From contig JAFVWT010000007.1 in assembly GCA_017501525.1 (NCBI GenBank), forward strand, positions 1-64,000: a stretch of DNA of 64,000 nt, given 5' to 3'. The DNA is from Bacteroidales bacterium. Lineage in GTDB: Bacteria; Bacteroidota; Bacteroidia; Bacteroidales; UBA932. The notes beneath the pieces were generated by a model that did not search any database, was not told where the DNA came from, and worked only from the letters and a program-made list of their open reading frames with translations. Shown piece after piece: positions 3,891-9,702 of this stretch. Every line of letters starts with the position of its first letter. Position 1 is the stretch's first letter. A program made the position numbers and the translations under genes.

Positions 3891-6800
3891 TTATTCCAAA
3901 CCAGTAATAATATGTCCGGTAGAGCCATCTTTAACTCTTGTCCAACCTGAATAGAACCCAGTTTTGGTATTTTCACCGGTGAAATTGATAGTATAATGAT
4001 TTGAGCCAGCAGGGTCAATTTCTACCACTGATGTCAAATCTCCAGCACCAGTATATCCTTCCGCTGTAGCATTGAACTTGCAATTGTTAATATTTATAAC
4101 AGTATTTGCATAACCATGAGCAAGGATTGCTTTACTGTTTGTGCCCCATTCGCAGTCCTTAAAGGTAACGCTAGTTGCTCCCCAGGTCCAGAAATATCCG
4201 TTTTGGGTATCGAAAGTACAGTTGTTGAAGGTGTAATCATTTGCATTATTAAGTGAATAAGAGCCAATGAATGCGCAATCATTGAATGTTCCTTTCATAT
4301 ATGCATAACCTTTATAATTTCCAGTATTTGATAATGTATTAATAGTTAATCCATTGAATACATAACTTCCTACACCTGTACCATTACCGCCAAAGCCATA
4401 GTCACATCCATCTTCTCCTTCATTCATAAGCTTAAACACTACATCCTTAGTTCCATTCAGAACCAAGTTCTTTCCACCACAACCATAAACATCATATTCA
4501 CCAGGAAGAAGATTAATAACAGTACAACCAGCTTTTACAGCGTTTGCCAATCCTTCTGCATTATTAACCACTGCATGAACAATAGGAGTATCATACAACT
4601 CACCATTCACATAAACAGTTGTCCTTTCACCATTCAAACTGTCCCATCTAGGAATGAATACCATTTCACCAAATTGAGGAGCAGTGCAGTTGTTAATTTT
4701 TACTTCTGCAGAGATTGTATTACTACTATTGATTTCAACCGCACCTAAAGAAAGTTCATTATTCGTATTGAATTTACAATTTTCAAATTCCACATCCATT
4801 GCAATACCTGCAACCGTATATACATTAATACAACGATCAACATATGTGAAATCACATTCCTTAAATGTGGTCTTTGTTGCACCGTATGTCCATACACAGT
4901 GTTCAGCTGTACTATTAAAGGTACAACTTTCAAAAATAGTGGGACTATACAACGAGAGTTCATCATTGATGTGACAATTTTTAAATGTTACGTATCTGGT
5001 ATGATAATAACCTTTATTAAACTCTTTAGCACCTTGAATTGTTACACCTTCAAAGGTAACTCCTGTATTAGAAAGATTTTGCGAGTTGGTTGGCAAAAAC
5101 ACAACTTCTCTATTACCTTTAACTGTTATATCTTTACCTTGCACCACGGGGAAACTATAAGTACCAGGAGTTTCTACTGTAATATTTGTTGCACCATGTT
5201 TCAAAGCATAATTAAAATCTTCTTGAGAGCCTACAGTAGCATTACCATTAGCATCCACTTCCAAAACCTTAACTACAACATTATTCACAGTTACATTTGT
5301 AGGATCAGGATTACTGTCTCTACGTCCTACCACTTCACCTGCATTCGCAGCGGGGAAAGGATTATCTTTATATGTTTCAATATATCTGTCTGCAATAACT
5401 GTTACATTTTCTACTAATACATCATCAATGATACAAGCAGTACCTTGAGCCATACCCACAGCTCCTGCAACATCTCTAAACGCCCTAATAGTCATATTTT
5501 TAACTGAAGATCCCTTAAGATGAGCAACATTTTGAGCAGTGAGATAACCTACTATTCCACCAGCTTTTGCTCCACCGTCATTATTCAGAACATTCACAGT
5601 AATTGAACCTCCGTCCACATGACAATTCTCTAAACGAGCACACAGACCATACCCAACTATCGCTCCGGCATAGTCAGAACCCTCAATATTTACATTGTTC
5701 ATTCTGACATTTTTGATAGTCATACCTCTTCCTGTTGAAGCAAACAATCCTACTCTTTTCTCTGTACCTGTGACTGTCAAGTTGCTAATAACATGGTCTC
5801 CACCATCAAATGTACCTGCTATGGTATTATTTTTTCCTATAGGAGTCCAAGCTACACCCTGCAAATCAACATCTGAAGTCAAAACTACAGTCTGTCCACC
5901 AAATACTGTAAGATTACCATTTTTAACTGATTGGTTAACTCTATCATGAACTACCGCCGATTTGGTAACACCATTAGATTGCTCGGCATACCATTGCAAA
6001 CCACTTACTCCATCCAAGAAGAAAGTTTTTTGATTAGGATCGTAGATTACACCTGTAGATATTTGTTCCAAGTCATCAAAGTTATATTCATAAGGTGCCC
6101 AAGAATCATCAATAGTAACATTAAAGTCGGTACTTGAAGAGATAAGATTACCAAAAATATTTGTTTTATAATTCTCTTGCAATGGAATATTATCCCAAGA
6201 GTGTGTAATTACTTGATTATCTTTCAAAGTAATTTCCAAACCTACTGTAGCCAATGCTTTATCATCACCAACTATTGGCAGGTAATCCATTGATACATAT
6301 TTATATTTTATACCATCAATTATTACATCCTCTTCAGGAACAGCAACTGCTTCAAACACATAATCTTTAGAAACTTCGCCATATCCTTCTACTGTATTAA
6401 ACACATCAGCAAGACCGGTAACAGTAACTTTTGAAGTTGCAAGTTCAAACTTACCTGCGTGATTTTCCAAACTGCTTTCGGTTGTTCTGATATTCAATTG
6501 AGCAAATGGACGTCTAAGGGTGATATCACTAGGGTCTCCAGGGGTAAATTCATCCTCAAAATGGAAGAATGCTGCACCTTCTTCACTGTTATGGAAGGTA
6601 TTTTTCATAGGAATTGAGAGCAACTCAGAATTTTCATCAACATAAGAGGTTCCTTTTTGTGCCCAGAATACGATGTCGTAAGATTGGTCTTGAATCAAAT
6701 TCAAAGTAACTTCTGCTACGCCATTAACAACAGTCTCTTGTGTTTTGAAAATAGCTTTTGCTCCAGGAGCAGCTTCATTGTAAACTGCAACATACAATGC

Positions 6801-6965
6801 GTCGACATTTTTGGCTTCTCCAATAGTTTTAGTTCCCATCTGTTCGGGAAGTTGTACAGTGAAAGTAGTGGGGCCTGACAACTGAGGCTCAACAACACTT
6901 TCCTGACACGATGTTGCAAATAGCATTGATGCTAATGCAACTAATGAAAGAAAATTCTTTTTCAT
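3891..6965 (-). CDS. Surface lipoprotein: DUF6562-like N-terminus, GLUG motifs and right-handed beta-helix
   Basis: A 1024-residue predicted surface lipoprotein of unknown function. The signal peptide ends in a lipobox (LFATSC, Cys20). Residues about 30-300 resemble the fimbrillin-like DUF6562 domain of Bacteroidales lipoproteins, including the FAQLNIRT block. Residues about 310-600 carry GLUG-type segments (GAIVGYGLCA, GGIVGYLTAQ) and strand-turn repeats of a parallel beta-helix. The C-terminal 400 residues contain two homologous beta-helix blocks: VWTYGATKTTFKECDF in the first matches FWTWGATSVTFKDCEW in the second, and each is followed by FENCKFN or INNCKFN. Such folds are common in adhesins and glycan-binding proteins, but no catalytic site is evident. 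It is monocistronic, with its own terminator. No clear TAnnTTTG box lies in the 338 bases upstream, but an apparently invertible promoter does lie beyond them (7303-7506). Confidence 0.8.
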   Translation of the reverse strand: MKKNFLSLVALASMLFATSCQESVVEPQLSGPTTFTVQLPEQMGTKTIGEAKNVDALYVAVYNEAAPGAKAIFKTQETVVNGVAEVTLNLIQDQSYDIVFWAQKGTSYVDENSELLSIPMKNTFHNSEEGAAFFHFEDEFTPGDPSDITLRRPFAQLNIRTTESSLENHAGKFELATSKVTVTGLADVFNTVEGYGEVSKDYVFEAVAVPEEDVIIDGIKYKYVSMDYLPIVGDDKALATVGLEITLKDNQVITHSWDNIPLQENYKTNIFGNLISSSTDFNVTIDDSWAPYEYNFDDLEQISTGVIYDPNQKTFFLDGVSGLQWYAEQSNGVTKSAVVHDRVNQSVKNGNLTVFGGQTVVLTSDVDLQGVAWTPIGKNNTIAGTFDGGDHVISNLTVTGTEKRVGLFASTGRGMTIKNVRMNNVNIEGSDYAGAIVGYGLCARLENCHVDGGSITVNVLNNDGGAKAGGIVGYLTAQNVAHLKGSSVKNMTIRAFRDVAGAVGMAQGTACIIDDVLVENVTVIADRYIETYKDNPFPAANAGEVVGRRDSNPDPTNVTVNNVVVKVLEVDANGNATVGSQEDFNYALKHGATNITVETPGTYSFPVVQGKDITVKGNREVVFLPTNSQNLSNTGVTFEGVTIQGAKEFNKGYYHTRYVTFKNCHINDELSLYSPTIFESCTFNSTAEHCVWTYGATKTTFKECDFTYVDRCINVYTVAGIAMDVEFENCKFNTNNELSLGAVEINSSNTISAEVKINNCTAPQFGEMVFIPRWDSLNGERTTVYVNGELYDTPIVHAVVNNAEGLANAVKAGCTVINLLPGEYDVYGCGGKNLVLNGTKDVVFKLMNEGEDGCDYGFGGNGTGVGSYVFNGLTINTLSNTGNYKGYAYMKGTFNDCAFIGSYSLNNANDYTFNNCTFDTQNGYFWTWGATSVTFKDCEWGTNSKAILAHGYANTVININNCKFNATAEGYTGAGDLTSVVEIDPAGSNHYTINFTGENTKTGFYSGWTRVKDGSTGHIITGLE

Positions 6966-7302
6966 AAAAATTTAATTTAAATTTAACAAAAGGTTTATGA
7001 TTATGTATTATACATTTATCTAATTATACCACTATATATTTCATAACAAATCGTTCAATGGATGGTGATAAACCTTGTGAAAAAGTATCATAAAAACTGC
7101 GGGAGATCCCACTTAAACATATATAACCTTATTATTACATCTTAATCAATAGCCATCACCCCCAAAGAACGATAAATATTTAAACAATGGGCCGTATTCA
7201 TTACACACATCGTTTATAAAGCATCACTCATACATCAGATAACAAAACTGATTTTCAATGACTTACAATATACAAACAAATGATATATTACTCTTTAGGC
7301 CA
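6966..7302 (-). promoter_or_regulatory. Long AT-rich leader between the lipoprotein gene and the invertible segment
   Basis: There are 337 bases without an open reading frame. On the minus strand I find no perfect TAnnTTTG box; the nearest near-matches are TATCATTTG and GTTCTTTG. This fits a gene whose transcription starts farther upstream, in the invertible segment, and it would give a long 5' untranslated leader. An unrecognised promoter inside the leader cannot be excluded. Confidence 0.45.
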
Positions 7303-7327
7303 AATTTCTCTAAATAAGAGAAGTTTA
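7303..7327 (+). repeat. Left 25-bp inverted repeat of the inverton
   Basis: Exact reverse complement of 7482-7506. The core dyad TTCTCT-AAATA-AGAGAA suggests a tyrosine recombinase crossover site. Homology stops at both edges of the 25 bases. Confidence 0.85.
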
Positions 7328-7465
7328 CCTCTATAAGAATCTAAAAATCGTGGAATTAACTCCTACGGAAAGGATAGGAGATCAGGAGCGATGAATAAAA
7401 CTTGCAACAGGATTAAAAAAAATCCATATAATACTTTCCTGAATGCTATATATCAAATATTTTAT

Positions 7466-7473
7466 TACCTTTG
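7466..7473 (+). promoter_or_regulatory. -7 box inside the inverton
   Basis: TACCTTTG matches TAnnTTTG exactly. A clear TTTG -33 box at 19-21 bases upstream is not visible (the region reads CTGAATGC), so promoter strength is uncertain. It is the only perfect match to the -7 consensus on either strand between the two inverted repeats. Confidence 0.55.
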
Positions 7474-7481
7474 CATTATAT

Positions 7482-7506
7482 TAAACTTCTCTTATTTAGA
7501 GAAATT
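7482..7506 (-). repeat. Right 25-bp inverted repeat of the inverton
   Basis: Exact reverse complement of 7303-7327. It lies directly before a copy of the short interspersed repeat family that begins at 7512. Confidence 0.85.
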
Positions 7507-7511
7507 CTCCT

Positions 7512-7625
7512 AAGGAATGTTCTACAAAGGACTTTGTAAAGATTTATGCAATTTTCTCCAAAAAGATTTTCATTTTCCTGAATGAGCATAGTGATGCTAT
7601 TGGAATGAATGAAAGATGGAAAGAT
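7512..7625 (-). repeat. Interspersed MITE/REP-like element, copy A
   Basis: Begins AAGGAATGTTCTACAAAG. On the minus strand it reads GGAGAAAATTGCATAAATC, then TTTACAAAGTCC, then TTGTAGAACATTCC, matching the conserved right half of the family. The remainder (GAGCATAGTGATG, GAATGAATGAAAG) is shared with copy C at 17328-17440. It lies 25 bases past the mntP stop codon. Confidence 0.65.
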
Positions 7626-7649
7626 TTCAAGAAAAAAATAAATTATTTA

Positions 7650-8240
7650 TCACAAGGACAAATGCTCAAAAAGAATCTTAACTCCTATAAGAATAAGGAT
7701 TATTCCACCGATTATCTCTGAACGTTTTCCCACTTTTGCTGCAAAACTCCGCCCCCCTATCAAGCCTAACAACGAGCCCAAGACAGAAAAAACAAAAGTC
7801 ATTGAGACTGCAAACACTACCTTGTATGCAGCAAGTTGTAACAATGCAACAGATACACCCACCGCTATTGCATCAATACTTGTCGCGATAGAAAGGAATA
7901 TAAGATTTTTGGTATTCAATAAAGAGTGTTTGCTCTCTGAGCATCCTCCACAGCACTCTGTTTCAGGAGAAAAGCCTTCAATAATCATCTTTATACCTAT
8001 ATATCCCAAAAGAACAAATGCTATCCAATGATCAAAGCGGGAAATATATTCACTGAAAAAGATACCAATAAACCACCCTGCAAAGATGAATCCTCCTTGA
8101 AAAAAACCAAATGAGAAAATTATTTTCAAAATTTGCTTCAAAAATAATTTGCTTCTGGTGCAGATTCCTCCGGTCAATGACACTGCAAAAGTATCAAAAC
8201 ACAACCCCAACGACAAAAGCAAAAGTTCAAGATAGCTCAT
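7650..8240 (-). CDS. mntP: MntP-type manganese efflux pump
   Basis: A 196-residue inner-membrane protein with six predicted transmembrane segments, the length of the MntP (formerly DUF204/UPF0059) family, which exports Mn2+. The two family repeats are visible, each with the acidic membrane motif: LGLCFDTFAVSL near residue 15 and IATSIDAIAVGVSVAL near residue 125. A central hydrophilic loop carries ECCGGCSES, a Cys cluster that may bind metal. Only one base separates it from the preceding sodium:solute symporter gene, so the two are co-transcribed. No manganese riboswitch is visible. Confidence 0.88.
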   Translation of the reverse strand: MSYLELLLLSLGLCFDTFAVSLTGGICTRSKLFLKQILKIIFSFGFFQGGFIFAGWFIGIFFSEYISRFDHWIAFVLLGYIGIKMIIEGFSPETECCGGCSESKHSLLNTKNLIFLSIATSIDAIAVGVSVALLQLAAYKVVFAVSMTFVFSVLGSLLGLIGGRSFAAKVGKRSEIIGGIILILIGVKILFEHLSL

Positions 8241-8241
8241 A

Positions 8242-9702
8242 TTATCTCTTTTTGAAAACCATCAATCCGACAAAGGTAATCACTCCGTTTAAAATTAACA
8301 AAGAGAACCCCAAATCAAAACCGATACAATGCTCCAGAATTGTCTTAATCGCAAACGAAAGCAATGGAGAAAGAGTACAGATCCAAGGCACTACTCTATC
8401 ACTCACATCAGATTTGCCCCATATTGCAAATCCATAAAGCCCCAACAAGGGCCCATAGGTATAACTTGCAAGTGTGTAAATTAAATTCAATACCGAAGTA
8501 TTATTGAAAAAATGGAAACACAGAACCAATATTGCAATCACTAAAACCAGCACAGACTCAATAATCACCCTATTGCGCCGTAATTGCCTCTGGCTTAATT
8601 CTCCGGATTTATCAAATCCTAAAAAATCGTGATAGACAGAAGATGTCAATGATGTAACTGCCGCAGCAGAGGATGGATATGAACTTGAAATCAGCCCCAA
8701 CACAAACAGAACCAATCCGAATGGTCCCATAAGATTCATTGCCACCCAAGGAAAAATCGCATCAGAGGAAGAAATGCCCAACACATCCATACCACCACTA
8801 TGCTCGATATATATAGCGAACAATGCTCCGAGAAACAGGAAAGTCAGATTGACCAATAATATAATTCCGGCTGTCGCATAAATATTTTTGCGCGCAGACT
8901 TCAAATTCTTGCATCCGAGACTTTTCTGCATCATTCCCTGATCGAGTCCCGTCATTGCCACCGTCATGAAGAAGCCGGCAGCAACCTGCTTAAAGAGGTT
9001 GGTTGGACTTTCGGGATCAAAGTCAAATACTGAAAAATATTTGGAGTAGTGTAAAGTTTCCACAAGAGTTTGTTCTCCTGATGAAAGTGTGCGGAGAAGA
9101 AAGCTGATAGCAGCTCCCACTGCCAAGAGCATCACAGTAGTATGAAAAACATCTGTCCATACCAAAGTCTTCACCCCACCTCTATAAGTATAAACAAACA
9201 ACATCAGAAGATACAATAGAACAATTGTCACAAATACCAAATTTGTATTATCACCTGTGTAGAATGACAACAATACTACTGCCACTACAAATATCCTCAC
9301 TGCACAATTGCACAGTCTTGAAAGAAAAAAGAAAAAAGCGGCAATTCTTCTTGAACGAATCCCAAATCTGTCAGAAAGATATGAATATATGGAGAGATCT
9401 CCACGCGTATAAAACAACGGCAACAAGACCCCCGCCACGAAGAAATAGCCCAGGACAAATCCTACAACCATCGGGAGGTAATAAAAATTTTCAGCCAACA
9501 CATTCCCAGGCACAGAAATAAATGTAACTCCGGAAATTGAGGCACCTACCATTCCGTATGCGGTTATTCCCCACGGGGCTTTCCTACCGGCATTGAAATA
9601 AGAGACACCATCTGTCCCTACACTTGTAACACGAGAGAGAAGATACAGGATAAGACAAAAAGCAAAGACTACTGTAAAAAGTACAGAAAAAGGAATTATC
9701 AT
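8242..9702 (-). CDS. Sodium:solute symporter (SSS/SLC5 family)
   Basis: A 486-residue multi-pass membrane transporter with about 13 hydrophobic segments. SSS features include YFNAGRKAPWGITAYGMVGASISGVTF at the first helices (given here only as the family N-terminal block), the FYTRGDLSIYSYLSDRFG segment and MTGLDQGMMQKSLGCK, which is highly characteristic of the family. The substrate cannot be told from sequence; sialic acid, proline or other organic solutes are all possible. An upstream in-frame TTG at 9726 exists, but the ATG at 9702 begins directly at the hydrophobic N-terminus (MIIPFSVLF) and is preferred. It precedes mntP with a one-base gap. Confidence 0.85.
   Translation of the reverse strand: MIIPFSVLFTVVFAFCLILYLLSRVTSVGTDGVSYFNAGRKAPWGITAYGMVGASISGVTFISVPGNVLAENFYYLPMVVGFVLGYFFVAGVLLPLFYTRGDLSIYSYLSDRFGIRSRRIAAFFFFLSRLCNCAVRIFVVAVVLLSFYTGDNTNLVFVTIVLLYLLMLFVYTYRGGVKTLVWTDVFHTTVMLLAVGAAISFLLRTLSSGEQTLVETLHYSKYFSVFDFDPESPTNLFKQVAAGFFMTVAMTGLDQGMMQKSLGCKNLKSARKNIYATAGIILLVNLTFLFLGALFAIYIEHSGGMDVLGISSSDAIFPWVAMNLMGPFGLVLFVLGLISSSYPSSAAAVTSLTSSVYHDFLGFDKSGELSQRQLRRNRVIIESVLVLVIAILVLCFHFFNNTSVLNLIYTLASYTYGPLLGLYGFAIWGKSDVSDRVVPWICTLSPLLSFAIKTILEHCIGFDLGFSLLILNGVITFVGLMVFKKR

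Follow-up and report, generated by a model that had tools for sequence, protein, structure and literature searches.

The window, a 64,000-nt stretch of the genome of a Bacteroidales bacterium (genome G000, 1.53 Mb in 19 contigs, 83% complete; the window lies on contig C4), contains two minus-strand genes, coding for a large lipoprotein and for MntP, with a pair of inverted repeats between them (Table 1). The arms of this pair, 154 nt apart, are complementary at 25 of 25 positions, and about 1.4e-7 such repeats would be expected by chance in 64 kb with the base composition of the window and arms within 1 kb of each other. A palindrome is present in each arm, with an asymmetric 5-nt spacer, AAATA in one and TATTT in the other. 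When both strands of the interior are searched, exactly one TAnnTTTG is found, the rightward TACCTTTG. A previous reading made from the sequence only had described perfect 25-bp inverted repeats around 154 bp, a single perfect -7 box firing through the right repeat and the repeat core TTCTCT-N5-AGAGAA, all of which are borne out. With the spacing between the -33 TTTG and the -7 box of such promoters taken as 19-21 nt, no exact TTTG is seen by eye at that distance upstream of the window box.

Table 1. Features of the window (positions without contig name) and of the remainder of genome G000 (positions preceded by the contig; for paired elements, the starts of the two cores)
Feature	Position	Strand	Remarks
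Lipoprotein gene, 1024 aa, presumed switch target	3891..6965	-	DUF6562-type N-terminal domain, beta-helix-like C-terminal part
Leader between element and lipoprotein start, 337 nt	6966..7302	-	no exact TAnnTTTG on either strand
Left 25-bp inverted repeat	7303..7327		TTCTCT 7306-7311, spacer AAATA 7312-7316, AGAGAA 7317-7322
Invertible interior, 154 bp (predicted)	7328..7481		enclosed by the arms
-7 box TACCTTTG of the putative invertible promoter	7466..7473	+	rightward; 14 nt to the right (exit) core
Right 25-bp inverted repeat	7482..7506		TTCTCT 7487-7492, spacer TATTT 7493-7497, AGAGAA 7498-7503
mntP, neighbour	7650..8240	-	PF02659, 133 bits
Element C1a	C1:557/742		paired pattern
Element C1b	C1:14103/14275		paired pattern
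Window element	C4:7306/7487		paired pattern
Element C5	C5:109232/109416		paired pattern
Element C14	C14:263/448		paired pattern
Element C15a	C15:1148/1333		paired pattern
Element C15b	C15:50932/51115		paired pattern
Element C16	C16:99964/100151		paired pattern
Single site at contig start	C18:76		half-element; contig end falls inside
Distal repeat	C14:1-262, C15:1-1147, C1:1-556, C5:109433-109913, C18:93-370		
Tyrosine recombinase, 307 aa, candidate invertase	C16:84510-85430		contig other than that of the window element

The promoter points away from the lipoprotein gene, which supports its assignment to the OFF state for this gene in the assembly. The leader had been given as 338 bases long, one more than its actual length, and the gene as lacking a clear promoter of its own. 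An exact TAnnTTTG, looked for on both strands of the leader, is indeed absent, suggesting that the gene would depend on the switch; seven matches with one mismatch do, however, occur on the lipoprotein strand, and a weaker promoter of its own may be present there. Sigma-70-type matches show no excess in the region 6900-8300 (seven, compared to 6.2 in shuffled sequence). The leader also contains a weak terminator-like hairpin followed by a T run (7112-7099, minus strand), the only one found in 6900-8300 where 0.5 are expected in shuffles; this hairpin could be an attenuator or could have arisen by chance.

The core TTCTCT-N5-AGAGAA, with at most one mismatch, occurs at 38 places in the genome, compared to 14 for the reversed control. 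The paired pattern, TCTCT-N5-AGAGA-N152-182-TCTCT-N5-AGAGA, is found eight times in G000 and once or twice each in nine of the 198 other genomes of the family, and the reversed control pattern is absent from all 199; in viral contigs a strict paired pattern has no match. The single switch proposed in the sequence-only reading, which had advised a search for further copies of the repeat, thus remains a switch but is one of at least eight in its genome. These eight complete elements of one site type are dispersed over contigs C1, C4, C5, C14, C15 and C16, with 172-187 bp from core start to core start, and the single site on C18 is probably half of a ninth element cut by the contig end. In seven of the eight elements a -7 TAnnTTTG stands 13-15 nt from one core. 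Among the ten elements of the relatives, six have the box at 14-15 nt, one at 17 nt and three have none so placed. Seven of the elements in G000 precede lipoproteins sharing an N-terminal domain. The box faces its lipoprotein (ON) in two of these, C14 and C15b, and faces away from it (OFF) in the other five, C4 (window), C15a, C16, C1a and C5. The remaining element, C1b, precedes a fimbrial operon with DUF3575, DUF5119 and two Mfa_like_1 (fimbrillin-like) genes; it has no exact TAnnTTTG, and a TTTG seen by eye 14 nt from its right core would place it in the ON orientation for the operon. Four further paralogues of the lipoprotein have no element of their own (C1:221505-224000, C16:72691-75051, C5:65948-69022 and C15:53649), the last of which follows another lipoprotein gene in the tandem served by C15b; two others were set aside, C2:46023-48758 because it lies only 160 bp away from its contig end and a second because the end of C16 truncates it.

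In all 18 elements, eight in G000 and ten in the relatives, each spacer is the exact reverse complement of its partner, where control sets with shuffled partners give a mean of 1.8 and a maximum of eight. The N5 spacer was left free by the search pattern, and the arms, fixed by it, are uninformative in this respect. Identity in the spacer columns is 1.00 within pairs and 0.33-0.35 between loci (0.69 in the last column); the 12 flanking columns on each side show 0.11-0.72 within pairs. Strand exchange by a tyrosine recombinase takes place within the spacer and requires matched spacers, and a spacer that is equal within each pair but varies between loci is what such exchange requires. A static structure that never inverts, whether paired operator sites or a bidirectional terminator, might equally display a palindrome in each arm, as operators and hairpins do. 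An operator would not, however, need spacers that match within rather than between loci in 18 of 18 pairs, and both orientations are found among paralogous elements and repeats of this kind adjoin tyrosine recombinases in the relatives, making a static structure highly improbable.

The opposite orientations are evident when the interiors are compared with the lipoprotein gene set on the right in all elements. The interiors of C14 and C15a align with a score of 190 when one is inverted and 25 in the same orientation (shuffle maximum 29), and those of C14 and C1a with 101 inverted and 20 in the same orientation (shuffle maximum 26), whereas C15a and C1a score 131 in the same orientation and 20 inverted (shuffles 31). 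The C5 interior is weakly concordant, with 38 inverted against C14 (shuffles 24) and, in the same orientation, 35 against C15a (shuffles 30) and 33 against C1a (shuffles 29). The distal flanks of C14, C15a and C1a, in contrast to their interiors, are collinear, with same-orientation scores of 109, 76 and 102 and inverted scores of 21-22 (C14 against C15a, 109 and 22; C14 against C1a, 76 and 21), and each of the three is followed by its lipoprotein gene on the same strand. Inverted interiors between collinear flanks indicate that inversion has happened and that both states are present in one assembly. No close paralogue exists for the window element, whose alignment scores to the other elements lie at or near shuffle level, so that these comparisons show past inversion for the paralogous elements and not for the window copy, which would presumably flip today.

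The invertase had been proposed to be encoded elsewhere in the genome, and a candidate is found on contig C16. Five genes with the PF00589 domain are present in G000: this 307-aa recombinase (Phage_int_SAM_5 and Phage_integrase domains), XerC, XerD, a 411-aa protein on C7 and a 410-aa protein at the end of C1. The presumed catalytic tyrosine of the 307-aa protein, Y287, is invariant in alignment A5. Serine recombinases (PF00239) have no match in this 83% complete genome. The C16 recombinase shares 53, 52 and 41% identity with recombinases encoded near elements in the relatives G004, G172 and G191, respectively, which lie 32 bp, 14 bp and approximately 670 bp from these elements. By comparison, the 411- and 410-aa proteins share at most 28% identity with the same three recombinases, and XerC and XerD have no match to them at an E-value of 1e-4. 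Against the housekeeping models the C16 protein scores only 41 bits (XerC, cut-off 335) and 32 bits (XerD, cut-off 330), whereas the XerD of the genome reaches 342 bits and its XerC 250 bits, near the cut-off.

Matches to the C16 protein of at least 200 bits occur in 32 of the 199 family genomes, ten of which bear elements, and none of the other 167 does (Fisher p 3e-9); at 300 bits or more, elements are found in eight of 15 genomes versus two of 184 (Fisher p 5e-9), both tests assuming independent genomes and loci, which related genomes are not. By the exact pattern, 22 of these 32 genomes have no element. A pattern-free scan revealed an inverted repeat no more than 100 bp away from the recombinase gene at 12 of 19 C16-type recombinase loci (matches of at least 298 bits in relatives, four genomes giving two loci each), versus one of 28 control PF00589 loci, all from nine element-bearing relatives, two of an original 30 having been dropped as C16-type; the remaining seven C16-type loci have no adjoining repeat. 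The arm reads CTCT...AGA in 11 of the 12 adjoining repeats and TCTCC...AGAGA in the twelfth; three (L122, L128 and L135) carry the strict TCTCT-N5-AGAGA and the others are variants.

In G000 itself no element lies beside the C16 recombinase gene, which would therefore act in trans, and the protein lacks some 90 N-terminal amino acids compared to the element-side recombinases of G004 (398 aa) and G172 (402 aa), although other recombinases of the C16 type are equally short (open frames of 304-342 aa). These features, together with the presence of five PF00589 genes and the incompleteness of the assembly, from which another invertase could be missing, leave some room for the switches being worked by XerC, XerD, the 411-aa C7 protein, the 410-aa protein at the C1 end or an enzyme absent from the assembly. 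Such an assignment is nevertheless unlikely, as, of the five, the C16 protein alone is similar (41-53%) to the recombinases that adjoin sites of this kind in three relatives, and XerD fits, and XerC nearly fits, a housekeeping model from which the C16 protein is far removed. The C16 recombinase is thus the likely enzyme of the switches, and the proposal of an invertase encoded elsewhere is supported by the presence, beside its relatives, of the same kind of element.

The segment 7303-7506 is very likely a phase-variable promoter (inverton). It belongs to a set of eight complete elements of the TCTCT-N5-AGAGA type, with a probable ninth, that would be flipped by the C16 recombinase. The paired elements, matched spacers, opposite orientations of paralogues and link to a recombinase all support the earlier reading of an invertible promoter assembled in its OFF state. 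The C16 recombinase would bind and pair the two palindromic sites and exchange strands within the AAATA and TATTT spacers, and with the spacer inverted between the arms this exchange would result in inversion of the segment rather than its deletion, such that approximately 7312-7497 would flip. Inversion would bring the -7 box to about 14 nt from the left core, and transcription would then run through this core and the 337-nt leader into the lipoprotein gene (ON). Transcription is expected to follow the orientation of the element, and the bacterium is probably able to vary its surface in the manner known from its Bacteroides relatives.

In its present orientation the promoter is aimed at the 3' end of mntP, as had been stated, and the sequence-only reading had added that switching might affect mntP through antisense RNA, so that the switch would trade the lipoprotein against MntP. 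No terminator-like site is found on the plus strand between the -7 box and mntP, and the direction of the promoter speaks for such an effect. The mntP loci of the relatives do not: the element is present in none of the 15 examined (three further fragments were left out, and L193 covers only approximately 250 bp of the 3' side). In 13 of these 15 relatives, the gene after mntP shares its start with a CorA-like transporter, an assignment made by Pfam on one of the 13 genes. Other OFF elements point at other sequences, including a transposase fragment (C1a) and a gene with no Pfam match (C16). The lack of such sites in the mntP regions of the relatives suggests that the lipoprotein and its switch probably came to lie next to mntP within this lineage, which makes it unlikely that the switch serves to act on mntP. 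The antisense addition is accordingly regarded as improbable, and mntP is probably a bystander only.

The six other element-linked lipoproteins share 23-36% identity with the window protein over their full length, and 13 N-terminal domains, including those of paralogues with no element and two from relatives, share 28-65% with that of the window lipoprotein over approximately 310 aa. The window lipoprotein matches DUF6562 with 25.6 bits, barely above the cut-off of 25, and Beta_helix with 23.7 bits, below the cut-off of 25.9. Among the seven element-linked lipoproteins, DUF6562 is matched in four (above cut-off in three) and a beta-helix in three (above cut-off in C14 only); the C15a lipoprotein has only a sub-threshold pectate-lyase-like match and that of C5 has none. 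A profile of the N-terminal domain compared with DUF6562/DUF5119 accessory proteins gave 85.6% over 294 columns, against 0.1% for the control comparison with unrelated recombinases. Kinship of this domain with the two Mfa_like_1 fimbrillins of the genome was considered and rejected, since hhalign gave 6.5% over 37 columns at the signal-peptide end only. A comparison with solved structures gave nothing for the N-domain profile up to an E-value of 1, and for the whole lipoprotein two matches at 0.7-0.8, which is chance level. In a scan of genome contigs, from which records of G000 itself may be missing, the lipoprotein had a single match, a partial one of 36% in a Clostridia MAG.

A link to type V pili is given by gene context, with fimbrial genes behind C1b and behind the element of the relative G046. 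In G046 the recombinase gene is followed by the element, a DUF3575 gene, a DUF6562 gene and the gene of a large lipoprotein related to that of the window, as assigned by Pfam on the G046 genes, and the order in G141 is alike. A DUF3575 gene is likewise found behind the element of G086 and behind one of the elements in G061. In G000 these kinds of parts are dispersed, with the recombinase on C16, the fimbrial operon on C1 and seven lipoproteins, each with an element, spread over six contigs. This linkage to fimbrial genes suggests that the lipoprotein may be an outer part of a pilus-like structure.

Switches of this general kind are known from Bacteroides, where surface lipoproteins, outer-membrane proteins and fimbriae are under the control of promoters that flip, and where several sites can be served by one invertase (PMC12548429, PMC4747536, PMC12632263, PMC11892184). 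Invertible promoters directly behind invertase genes are described with the consensus TTTG at -33 and TAnnTTTG at -7 (PMC8748976). The S-layer lipoprotein BT1927 of Bacteroides thetaiotaomicron is expressed from a promoter between inverted repeats, and mutation of one repeat locks it ON or OFF (PMC12548429). The layout here is similar, with inverted repeats on both sides of the putative promoter of a surface lipoprotein gene, but one site type is used at no fewer than eight loci. In the Mpi system of B. fragilis, a serine recombinase acts as one master invertase on several dispersed capsule promoters (PMC4747536, PMC12632263). Several dispersed surface-locus promoters under one master invertase are likewise presumed here; unlike in that system, capsule loci are not the targets and no PF00239 gene was found. 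Several dispersed promoters with one site type, a feature of tyrosine-type master-invertase systems such as BF2766/tsr19 of B. fragilis, are found here as eight complete elements. That system has two promoters, compared to at least eight here, and the recombinase here has no element beside it (PMC4747536). The inverton groups 137, 112 and 122 of gut bacteria lie near fimbrillin genes with group-specific repeats and invertases, and the elements described here similarly face fimbrial and other surface genes (PMC11892184).

The mechanism is thus already known, as are invertible surface-protein promoters under one invertase in Bacteroides, and the present set is unusually large. What sets this case apart is how many dispersed sites a presumed tyrosine recombinase would serve, together with the lipoprotein family and the clear split of the site into arm and spacer. 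No description of this set of switches was found in the open-licence literature, motif supplements apart, and the site type may already be catalogued among published repeat motifs. A single suspicious repeat has become a mapped set of eight sites and a probable ninth, together with the genes they face and a candidate enzyme. Should this be confirmed, a single recombinase would decide which of several variable lipoproteins the cell displays and whether it displays the products of the fimbrial operon. This would be a bet-hedging device of the kind that in B. thetaiotaomicron is associated with resistance to phage and complement (PMC12548429).

The spacers differ in how widely they are shared. 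The spacer AAAAA is common to C14, C15a, C1a, C5 and the half-element on C18, all of which lie within approximately 1.2 kb of a contig end, unlike the elements with other spacers. A two-part site can be envisaged, in which the common arms are recognised and the spacer serves as the address of the locus: elements with private spacers would be independent switches, those with AAAAA would also recombine with one another and reshuffle the adhesin repertoire chromosome-wide, and the lipoproteins would be interchangeable outer parts of a pilus-like structure. This extended scheme is speculative and, taken as a whole, doubtful. The locus-specific spacers provide a direct test of the number of promoters that a single invertase can serve without cross-talk. 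The contig-end placement was rejected as a sign of recombination between loci, as a shared distal repeat explains the breaks equally well. This repeat (outward ATCCCAAACATAGGAGCGC...) lies distal to the five AAAAA elements, toward the contig end in four of them, and a partial transposase with rve domains (C1:42-458) is located near the distal repeat of one.

Some elements may control more than one gene. Tandem lipoprotein genes (L011, L186; C15:51207-56429) lie behind the ON-oriented C15b, a single switch that may serve two paralogues. The C16 element is OFF (L012, L183; region C16:100129-100266), and approximately 100 bp past its right core the promoter faces a 350-aa gene that has no Pfam match and is accompanied by two TAnnTTTG boxes of its own; two genes could be under the influence of this element. 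Two more distant C16-type recombinases in relatives, L141 (G183, 262 bits) and L142 (G189, 254 bits), have a 22-bp repeat 14 bp away in which the arm is altered (GTTTCTGCCGGAGAAAC), as though it had evolved along with the enzyme.
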